5,307 bases of DNA from a bacterium. GTDB taxonomy: Bacteria > SAR324 > XYD2-FULL-50-16. The DNA lies in the NCBI GenBank assembly GCA_024275165.1, contig JAJRZQ010000022.1, positions 1 to 5,307 on the forward strand. The letters run 5' to 3'. Position 1 is the first letter of the stretch. Every line of letters starts with the position of its first letter. The notes under the pieces were generated by a model. The model saw only the letters and a list, made by a program, of their open reading frames with translations. It ran no database searches and had not been told where the DNA came from. A program made the translations under genes and the position numbers. This document shows, piece after piece, positions 2,903 through 5,307 of this stretch.

Positions 2903-4786
2903 ATGAAAACACAAAACAAGATCTATCGGTTTCTTGCCCCAATCGGGCTAACCCTATTATTAATGTTGGGGCTTATATCTTGTAAGCCAGCTACGAATGA
3001 AGACGCAGGAATCACTCCGCTCTCTGTTCAAAGCAGCGAAAAATCCATGCGCAGCTTTCAGTTTACCTCGGCAAAAAATTCAAACTTGAATGAAGATATA
3101 GTCGCGGTCATTGAGGGTTCCCAGATCACCGCAACCCTTCCCGTCAGCGGAGACCCAACAAACCTGATCGCTACCTTTATTGCCAGCGATAAATCCAAGG
3201 TTCAAGTCAATAGTCTGGCCCAAGAAAGCGGGGTGACGGCTCAAGATTTTTCTAAAGCAATAACCTATAGGGTTATCGCTGAAGACGGCAGTATCGCGGA
3301 TTATGAGGTCACCGTTACGGTTGCGTCCGCTACAGCAAAGGAACTGAGTGCTTTTCGTTTCCTTAAAACCGACAATCCGGGTCTGGCCGCCGATGTAACT
3401 GGAGTAATCAGCGGAACCAACATCAGTCTCAACCTGCCCTTTGGCACCACCGTAACCGCCTTGGTGGCCAGCTTCAGCACTACGGGCCAGAAAGTTCAGG
3501 TCGGCACGACAGCCCAAACCAGCCAAAGCACGGCCAACGACTTCACCAACCCCGTGACCTATAGGGTGACAGCGGAAGACGGCACTGTGCAAGATTACCT
3601 GGTAACCGTGACCCTAGCCCTTGCCAGTTCCAAAGAGTTGACCTCCTTTCAGTTTTTGGCGACCACAAATGCCCAGCTTTCCGCCGATGTGACGGGAGTG
3701 ATTGACCAAGCTAAGCTGAAGATTCAACTCAATTCCCATATCCGCACCAACCCCACGGCCTTGATTGCCAGTTTTACCACTACCGGGAGTAATGTACAAA
3801 TCGCCGCCGCCGCCCAAACCAGCGGCAGCACGGCCAATGATTTCACCAGCCCGATCACCTATACGGTTACGGCGGCAGATGGCAGCAGTCAAAATTATAG
3901 CGTTACGGTGGGCTTAACTCTCAACCCCATTCCCGATACGGGGCAGGTAACAGGTTATACGGCTACCTTAGGGGAAGATAACGACTACAACACCAGCAAC
4001 CAGCAGAGCTACACTGTCAATGGTGATGGCACGGTAACCGATAATGTGACCAAGCTGGTCTGGCAACAATGTTCCGCCGGCTTAAGCGGGGCCGGTTGCG
4101 CCACCGGTACGGGCGCGATCTACACCTCTGCAAACGCCTTGACCTATTGCAGTGGAAATACGCCGGGCCTGCCCGGTACAGGTTGGCGACTCCCGACTAA
4201 GACCGAGCTAGCTTGGATTGTAGATAGTGAACCTGCCGCAGGAACTACAATCAATGCCAAGACCTTCCCCTCCACGGTCGCGGGCACATATTGGGCGAGT
4301 ACTACCTATGCGCTAAATACCGCAAACACATGGAGCGTGTACTTTAGCAATGGCATGGTCAACAGCCTCACTCAAGCCGCCAGCCTTTATGTCCGTTGTG
4401 TTCGAGGTTCAGCCGCTCCAACCCCAAACTTGGTGGATAACGGAGACCAAACGATCACCGATACTGCCCGCAGCCTAACCTGGGACAAAAGAGAAACGAC
4501 CATCATGGCCTGGGATGCTGCCTTAACCTATTGCGAGACCTCGGCTCATGCCGGACAAACGGATTGGCGATTGCCCAATCGAAATGAATTGGCATCTCTG
4601 GTGGATAATACGATTACCACCACCCCTTTGATCAATGCCGCCTTCTCCAATGCGGTGGCCAGCTTCTATTGGACGAGCACTACCTATGCGCCGAATACCG
4701 CGAACGCGTGGAGTGTGGGGTTTGGCAACGGCAATATCAGTAACGGCGGTAAGGCCGGCAACTCTTATGTTCGTTGTGTCCGCTGA
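2903..4786 (+). CDS. Surface lipoprotein: three Ig-like repeats plus two DUF1566/Lcl lectin-like domains
   Basis: The product has 627 residues. Residues 1-27 form a lipoprotein signal peptide: basic start, hydrophobic LAPIGLTLLLMLGLI, lipobox LISC with lipidated C27. Three tandem beta-rich repeats follow at about 49-140, 147-239 and 244-337. Each has the pattern F-x-F ... L ... V-x-G-V-I ... L-I-A-x-F ... A-Q-x-S-x-x-T-A-x-D-F ... T-Y-x-V-x-A-x-D-G ... Y-x-V-T-V, resembling DUF5018-type Ig-like domains (name from memory). Two DUF1566 (Lcl C-terminal) domains span about 367-502 and 509-627, each with D-x-x-x-x-L-x-W, W-R-L-P and a terminal Y-V-R-C-V-R; the second ends exactly at the stop. The fold group is C-type-lectin-like and often serves as the display scaffold of diversity-generating retroelements. 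Likely role: anchored stalk presenting ligand-binding heads at the cell surface. Ligand unknown. Confidence 0.85.
   Translation: MKTQNKIYRFLAPIGLTLLLMLGLISCKPATNEDAGITPLSVQSSEKSMRSFQFTSAKNSNLNEDIVAVIEGSQITATLPVSGDPTNLIATFIASDKSKVQVNSLAQESGVTAQDFSKAITYRVIAEDGSIADYEVTVTVASATAKELSAFRFLKTDNPGLAADVTGVISGTNISLNLPFGTTVTALVASFSTTGQKVQVGTTAQTSQSTANDFTNPVTYRVTAEDGTVQDYLVTVTLALASSKELTSFQFLATTNAQLSADVTGVIDQAKLKIQLNSHIRTNPTALIASFTTTGSNVQIAAAAQTSGSTANDFTSPITYTVTAADGSSQNYSVTVGLTLNPIPDTGQVTGYTATLGEDNDYNTSNQQSYTVNGDGTVTDNVTKLVWQQCSAGLSGAGCATGTGAIYTSANALTYCSGNTPGLPGTGWRLPTKTELAWIVDSEPAAGTTINAKTFPSTVAGTYWASTTYALNTANTWSVYFSNGMVNSLTQAASLYVRCVRGSAAPTPNLVDNGDQTITDTARSLTWDKRETTIMAWDAALTYCETSAHAGQTDWRLPNRNELASLVDNTITTTPLINAAFSNAVASFYWTSTTYAPNTANAWSVGFGNGNISNGGKAGNSYVRCVR
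3047..3913 (+). repeat. Three tandem Ig-like repeat units inside the lipoprotein gene
   Basis: The units cover about 3047-3322, 3341-3619 and 3632-3913, each near 92 codons. Units 2 and 3 are the most alike, including at DNA level: both carry GCCCAAACCAGC followed by AGCACGGCCAA and then an ACCTATA segment near the unit end. Unit 1 is more diverged. This points to a recent duplication of unit 2 or 3. The array probably makes a rigid stalk between the lipid anchor and the two DUF1566 heads. Confidence 0.75.
4286..4405 (+). repeat. First copy of the 40-codon DUF1566 terminal segment (possible old VR)
   Basis: This segment encodes residues 462-501 and aligns without gaps to 4664-4783; 24 of 40 residues are identical. 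The anchors Y-W, S-T-T-Y-A, N-T-A-N, W-S-V, N-G and Y-V-R-C-V-R are shared, while the stretch between N-G and Y-V differs strongly. Silent third-base changes in the anchors show that the two copies were not both written recently from one template. It may be an older, fixed copy of the variable segment. Confidence 0.6.
4664..4786 (+). other. Candidate DGR variable region (VR) at the lipoprotein C-terminus
   Basis: The last 40 codons plus stop have the layout of known DGR targets: a C-type-lectin-like domain whose final segment carries scattered variable residues between fixed anchors and ends at the stop codon. Conserved W-S-V-x-F-x-N-G (603-610) and Y-V-R-C-V-R (622-627) frame the codons GGC AAC GGC AAT ATC AGT AAC GGC GGT AAG GCC (608 on) and then GGC AAC. 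Most read as AAC or AAT codons with A replaced at positions 1 and 2, which is what adenine-specific mutagenic retrohoming produces from an Asn-rich template. The lipoprotein setting matches Legionella LdtA and Treponema TvpA. No reverse transcriptase or template repeat is in the window, so the element that would supply it is not seen. Confidence 0.5.
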
Positions 4787-4801
4787 AAAGACATAGCCCT
4801 T

Positions 4802-4819
4802 CGATGATTTGAATCTTCG
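4802..4819 (+). other. Imperfect hairpin just downstream of the candidate VR
   Basis: CGATGAT (4802-4808) can pair with ATCTTCG (4813-4819), with one T-T mismatch and the loop TTGA. It begins 16 bases after the stop. In characterised DGRs a short hairpin with a four-base loop just 3' of the VR promotes retrohoming. This one is weaker because of the mismatch, and it also overlaps the edge of the FG-GAP remnant. Confidence 0.25.
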
Positions 4820-5127
4820 GCACTTGCGTTGCCATTGAGGGAAATAAGATTGTTGTGGGCGCCTCAGGGGAACACGGAGGAGTCGGGACCAATGCCGGAG
4901 CAGCCTACCTCTTTCAACGCTCCAGCGCAAGCTGGAGCCAACAGGGCAAGCTGCTCCCCGCGGGAAATATGGACTCCAATGATCTCTTTGGGTTCTCTGC
5001 GGGAATCAGCGGCAAAACCATCTTGATCGGAGCGGTATATGAAGCGTCCAATCAAACAACCATCACCACTACGACCAACGCCAACAATTTTGCTTCCAGT
5101 TCTGGTGCCGCTTATGTCTTTCATTAA
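4813..5127 (+). pseudogene. 3' remnant of an FG-GAP beta-propeller protein gene
   Basis: From 4813 the frame reads I-F-G-T-C-V-A-I-E-G-N-K-I-V-V-G-A-S, then G-T-N-A-G-A-A-Y-L-F-Q and, one blade later, L-F-G-F-S-A-G-I-S-G-K-T-I-L-I-G-A and S-G-A-A-Y-V-F-H before TAA. These are two FG-GAP blades, the integrin-alpha type propeller repeat seen in bacterial surface lipoproteins. A TGA at 4810-4812 closes the frame just upstream, and the only start-like codon (GTG 4855) falls inside the blade motif, so no complete protein is made. The adjacent frame holds D-D-L-N at 4803-4814 and could be the continuation across a one-base frameshift. The frame differs from that of the preceding lipoprotein. It looks like the natural C-terminus of a lost gene. 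Confidence 0.75.
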
Positions 5128-5147
5128 CCCCAGCCACCATGGCTTAA

Positions 5148-5174
5148 GGAAACTCTGAAAAACGCGGAGTTTCC
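5148..5174 (+). terminator. 10-bp hairpin after the FG-GAP remnant, no T-tract
   Basis: GGAAACTCTG (5148-5157) pairs with CGGAGTTTCC (5165-5174) with one T·G wobble, around an A-rich seven-base loop. It lies about 20 bases after the stop of the FG-GAP frame, where a terminator would be expected. The absence of a following T-run leaves its role open. Confidence 0.35.
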
Positions 5175-5176
5175 CA

Positions 5177-5196
5177 GCAAGGCAGAGATGCCTTGC
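5177..5196. other. Perfect 8-bp hairpin with GAGA tetraloop
   Basis: GCAAGGCA (5177-5184) and TGCCTTGC (5189-5196) are exact reverse complements around the loop GAGA, a GNRA-type tetraloop if transcribed. It lies two bases after the preceding 10-bp hairpin. An 8-bp stem with a four-base loop is also the form of the DGR retrohoming hairpin, but it sits about 390 bp from the candidate VR, too far for that role as known. Confidence 0.4.
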
Positions 5197-5284
5197 CCAA
5201 TCAAAAAGCGCGACTTATTGATTCGCGTTGGGATTGTGGATTTCATTCCCAACCGAAAAGACTAAAAAACTCGATGCGCCCCAA

Positions 5285-5300
5285 GGGCTGTAATCAGCCC
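5285..5300. other. GC-rich 6-bp hairpin at the right edge
   Basis: GGGCTG (5285-5290) pairs with CAGCCC (5295-5300) around TAAT. It is flanked by GCCCCAAGGGC on the left and GCCCGAAGGGC on the right, two nearly identical 11-base motifs that are each self-complementary at their ends. The structure may continue past the window. Confidence 0.3.
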
Positions 5301-5307
5301 GAAGGGC

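Follow-up and report, generated by a model that had tools for sequence, protein, structure and literature searches.

The C-terminal segment at positions 4667-4783 of the window, a DNA stretch of 5307 bp that makes up the entire contig C10, appears to be a relic of a diversity-generating retroelement (DGR). We give a probability of about 0.78 to the reading that it is the decayed, orphaned variable region (VR) of two fused DGR target types, and that the gene now encodes a fixed surface protein with a lectin fold. The original prediction had taken the segment for a DGR variable region whose binding face is actively diversified. Homology to genuine VRs in sister genera upholds the assignment to the VR class, but the site does not look live here. 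Active diversification is not supported, in view of the lack of a reverse transcriptase (RT) and of a template (TR) in the genome searches, of drift at non-adenine sites, and of the absence of a 3' element. With neither copying machinery nor template nor landing signal found in this genome, the segment is most likely a frozen leftover and not a live site.

The genome around the window is a draft of 2.69 Mb in 47 contigs that is 98.35% complete. Among named relatives, Candidatus Lambdaproteobacteria RIFOXYD2_FULL_50_16 was the nearest one found. The window carries, in order, the 3' part of an RNase E/G gene, genes for an RNA pseudouridine synthase and CheX, the lipoprotein gene and a truncated FG-GAP gene. 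The lipoprotein gene was found next to cheX in none of the examined stretches of five genomes of the same family. At its left end the contig has 141 exact bases in common with contig C43, with synteny kept, and its right end overlaps contig C20 (318 bp, 99.4%). Beyond this overlap, C20 contains ORFs that were named by inspection as HflC/HflK, MltG and AccA. The overlaps lead into ordinary chromosome on both sides, and therefore no cassette appears to be cut off at an edge; with C43 synteny on the left and C20 housekeeping genes on the right, the idea of a DGR cassette just past the contig edge was rejected. A viral origin was also considered and rejected, no related viral contig having been found. 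An Rfam search of the window returned zero matches.

A complete DGR is present in G002, a sister genus of the same family (contig C42, locus L048, 7911-13616). Its parts lie on one strand in the order 870-aa lipoprotein target, MutS_I protein, bAvd, TR, RT and second Lcl_C target. The RT bears a C-terminal MutS_I domain, the separate MutS_I protein adjoins bAvd, and bAvd is the PHROG 'Avd protein of DGR'. All differences between the TR and the two in-cassette VRs are at TR adenines (21/21 and 19/19), and VR-like copies also occur off the cassette contig, on C61. The VRs of a further relative, G004, differ among themselves at TR-adenine sites in 22/22, 18/19 and 19/20 cases despite diverged flanks, which is a mark of template homogenization. 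Despite these clean VRs (L040 and L058, on contigs C39 and C2), no RT, bAvd or TR was found in G004, whose VR locus on C2 contains assembly gaps. The targets in these genomes include two types, which often stand as separate tandem genes, as in G002 (C61) and G004 (C39, C44 and C8), and in a single frame on G002 contigs C62 and C24.

The lipoprotein of the window combines both target types (Table 1). The flanks of its first domain are identical to the target-1 type at 53/73 positions and to the target-2 type at 29/73, and the flanks of the second domain assign it to the second type; the gene therefore looks like a fused target pair. The first VR-like segment reads through into the second Lcl_C domain; the DNA of the two segments is 73% identical. 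Inspection of the ORF translation places a lipobox cysteine near the N-terminus (MKTQNKIYRFLAPIGLTLLLMLGLISC). The two domains score 99.9 and 92.6 bits against the Lcl_C profile (PF07603), above its curated cut-off of 34.9, and belong to this family. As originally proposed, the second DUF1566 domain runs to the stop codon. Its AlphaFold2 model (pLDDT 81.6) matches the Legionella Lcl-CTD structure 8q4e with a Z of 13.3 over 108 residues (rmsd 2.2), and C-type-lectin-like domains and intimin with a Z of about 9-10. A C-type-lectin fold is predicted from this model, and the domain may serve as the ligand-binding tip of the surface lipoprotein. The suggestion of a C-type-lectin domain on a lipoprotein is thus supported by family, predicted fold and lipoprotein setting.

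Table 1. Features of the lipoprotein gene and its 3' flank, in window coordinates
Feature	Positions	Strand	Basis
Two-domain Lcl_C (DUF1566) lipoprotein, 627 aa	2903..4786	+	ORF; Pfam Lcl_C x2; DUF5018-type repeats; lipobox
Signal peptide with lipobox L-I-S-C, Cys27	2903..2983	+	Translation read by eye
Tandem DUF5018/cadherin-like beta-sandwich repeats (stalk)	3035..3950 (approximate bounds)	+	Pfam PF16410/PF22243
First Lcl_C domain, G002 target-1 type	4028..4405	+	Pfam 2.2e-26; flank identity
First VR-like segment, internal	4289..4405	+	Aligned to G002 TR
Second Lcl_C domain, G002 target-2 type	4448..4783	+	Pfam 1.2e-28; flank identity 52/85 to target-2 type
Second VR-like segment, homologous to live DGR VRs but drifted	4667..4783	+	Alignment to G002 TR
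3' flank without the GAGAG/CTTTGG element and GC hairpin conserved after the VRs of relatives	4787..4870	+	Flank comparison

From 4667 the codons read YWTSTTYAPNTANAWSVGFGNGNISNGGKAGNSYVRCVR, followed by the stop codon, and this segment aligns without gaps to the G002 TR, which reads YWSSTTYALNSTNAWNVNFNNGNVNNNNKTNNNYVRCVR. All 14 AAY (Asn) codons of the TR are in register with the codons flagged in the original prediction, of which six are now Asn and eight Ser or Gly. The AAY-like pattern described there is present (AGT GGG GGC AAC AAT AGT AAC GGC GGT AAG GCC GGC AAC TCT). Counted over a 117-nt core against the TR of the sister genus G002, which is not the window genome's own, 16/38 adenine and 18/79 non-adenine sites are changed. 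A slightly longer stretch gives 19/42 adenine and 18/81 other sites (Fisher p 0.012), so that changes are enriched at TR adenines and the pattern exceeds chance. This enrichment is far below the near-complete confinement of a live VR. Against the same TR, non-adenine changes number 0/79 in the in-cassette G002 VRs, 5-6/79 in two other G002 copies and 3-4/79 in the G004 VRs. Confinement of VR differences to template adenines is thus not seen when the segment is compared with the sister TR. The non-adenine changes are mostly at third codon positions, the kind of drift that had been named at the outset as evidence against a DGR target. The adenine sites also have a character of their own. The changes there are A to G in 14 of 16 cases, and the AAY positions are Asn, Ser or Gly throughout (14/14), whereas the VRs of relatives contain many A-to-T changes and encode Tyr, Phe, Asp and Val. 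Finally, the two VR-like copies of the lipoprotein mutually differ at 17 non-adenine sites, and so no shared template homogenizes them.

Searches for the other parts of a DGR were negative in this genome. No RVT_1 match exists in the 98.35%-complete assembly, and a search with the G002 RT gave no match to its RT domain either; one weak match to this sister RT covers its C-terminal MutS_I part only (residues 395-503). bAvd, which scores above the cut-off in G002, G005, G006 and G009, has no match in the window's genome. Avd is not present in all DGRs. A search of the genome for a TR by DNA similarity returned a single copy, the lipoprotein's own first domain. A degenerate anchor search of the assembly found two YVRCVR-coding anchors, both in the lipoprotein gene, and no third site, and a scan for A-biased repeats within the window gave no TR-VR pair. 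The adenine-differing template copy and the DGR-type RT that the original prediction led one to look for are both missing from this 98%-complete draft assembly.

The 3' flank also lacks the features of a landing site. Efficient retrohoming in phage BPP-1 requires a sequence immediately 3' of the VR that can form a hairpin (PMC3240598). The VRs of G001, G002 and G004 are followed by a common stretch of the GAGAG..TTGG..CTTTGG type, which is not always complete. Within 85 nt, 10/10 complete VR flanks examined in these genomes also contain a hairpin whose stem pairs perfectly over 6-10 bp, a count that leaves out G004_C2a, which runs into an assembly gap, and the divergent, unscored G004 C8 copy. 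Downstream of 4786, the window has no such shared element and no perfect stem of at least 5 bp within 85 nt.

Silent sites give a further view of the history of the segment. Between G002 and G004, about 1 in 22 silent sites differ in the VR, compared with 0.54 in three chromosomal genes. Between the window and G002, the chromosomal genes differ at 0.57 of silent sites and the VR at about 0.35-0.39. The latter value corresponds to 6-7 of 16-18 silent sites in comparisons with the G002 and G004 VRs; flanks of the same type differ at 0.60-0.69. The VR-versus-flank difference is borderline (p 0.04-0.09). The lower divergence of the VR is consistent with a weak trace of past, not present, template-driven homogenization. 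Against class relatives in G013, the silent differences amount to 9/17 and 8/14.

G013 also bears on a different account, in which this Lcl_C domain is an ordinary one without any past as a DGR target in the lineage, its Asn/Ser/Gly loops being a family habit and its likeness to VRs a product of shared domain ancestry. Lcl_C domains do occur in genomes in which no DGR was seen, and G013, with no RVT_1 match, shows similar change from the G002 TR, e.g. at 15/38 adenine and 23/79 non-adenine sites. We nevertheless consider such an origin unlikely. It does not sit well with silent sites that are closer to the G002 and G004 VRs than the flanks are, and closer than to G013, nor with the match of the two domains to two target types that adjoin each other in DGR-bearing relatives. 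Less probable still is a live site, in which an active DGR elsewhere in the species, absent from the draft, rewrites 4667-4783 in trans. Sister genomes have DGRs with VR-like copies off the cassette contig (G002 C61), G004 has clean VRs without an assembled RT, and at 5.3 kb the window is only a short contig, all of which would suit this account. In one form of it, the trans-acting DGR would still rewrite the lipoprotein from a template that has itself diverged, at a target site without the 3' hairpin element. Against a live site stand the failure to find an RT, a bAvd, a TR or a further anchor in an assembly that is 98% complete, non-adenine drift at 18/79 sites, the absence of the 3' element and hairpin, and two VR-like copies that are not homogenized.

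The orphaned and decayed target most probably arose as follows. An ancestor or donor would have carried a bAvd-type DGR like that of G002, in which two Lcl_C lipoprotein targets of differing types lay side by side. The two types would have been fused into a single gene, and the RT, Avd, TR and 3' landing element would have been lost. The gene would have been kept as an ordinary surface lipoprotein with two lectin-fold domains whose binding faces are now fixed, that of the second domain being rich in Asn, Ser and Gly. We infer past diversification in the window's lineage, the order of the losses and the ligand-binding role. Several points count against this reading. The assembly is a 98.35%-complete draft of 47 contigs, so a cassette could be missing, and the clean VRs of G004 without an RT or bAvd show that drafts can lose DGR cassettes. 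The silent-site contrast between VR and flanks is borderline, and the domain could also have been acquired already diversified.

The closest known system is the G002 DGR itself. As in the window, its Lcl_C lipoprotein target ends in an ungapped homologue of the segment with the same AAY positions, and two domain types are present. Unlike the window, it has the RT, bAvd, MutS_I protein, TR and 3' hairpin, and its in-cassette VRs differ at adenines only. In human microbiomes, DUF1566 (Lcl_C) proteins are DGR targets with the VR at the C-terminus (PMC4159848). Those targets were called from TR-VR pairs, and the window's assembly has none. A parallel for the loss of machinery is found in Treponema denticola isolates, in which target genes kept without RT and TR were read as remnants (PMC4891356). 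The target there is of the TvpA type, unlike Lcl_C, and the loss is demonstrable between strains of one species. The C-terminal domain of Legionella Lcl (8q4e, 8qk8) is the same Pfam domain, with the C-type-lectin fold predicted for the second domain of the lipoprotein (PMC11162425). Lcl is a trimeric glycosaminoglycan-binding adhesin with a collagen-like stalk, and the paper describing it makes no mention of DGRs (PMC11162425). Our literature search found no paper linking DGRs with Lambdaproteobacteria.

The window shows that a DGR variable-region signature can persist where no machinery is found, and target calling from the signature alone would thus give false positives. The family, whose nearest named genome is Candidatus Lambdaproteobacteria, contains homologous targets with and without a detectable DGR. 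Such a family is a good setting in which to study the loss of DGRs and the fate of their targets. TR-VR pairs of a sequence type other than Lcl_C were also observed, in G006 (C101, L166:7823-10052) with 93% and in G009 (C132, L167:103-2687) with 100% of differences at template adenines, and the same contigs match RT and bAvd.

The FG-GAP gene at 4855-5127 lies directly after the lipoprotein gene, and its N-terminal part is apparently missing. It is possibly the scar of a rearrangement that took away the original 3' flank of the lipoprotein gene. The last part of the window, 5140-5307, belongs to a repeat, about 205 bp long and cut short here by the contig end, of which about 40 copies are dispersed in the genome, mostly at 90-95% identity. 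The repeat folds strongly (z -6.0), its ends are inverted (GGAA.CTCTGAAAAAC and GTTTTTCAGAG.TTCC), and it is a MITE-like or REP-like element without an Rfam match.
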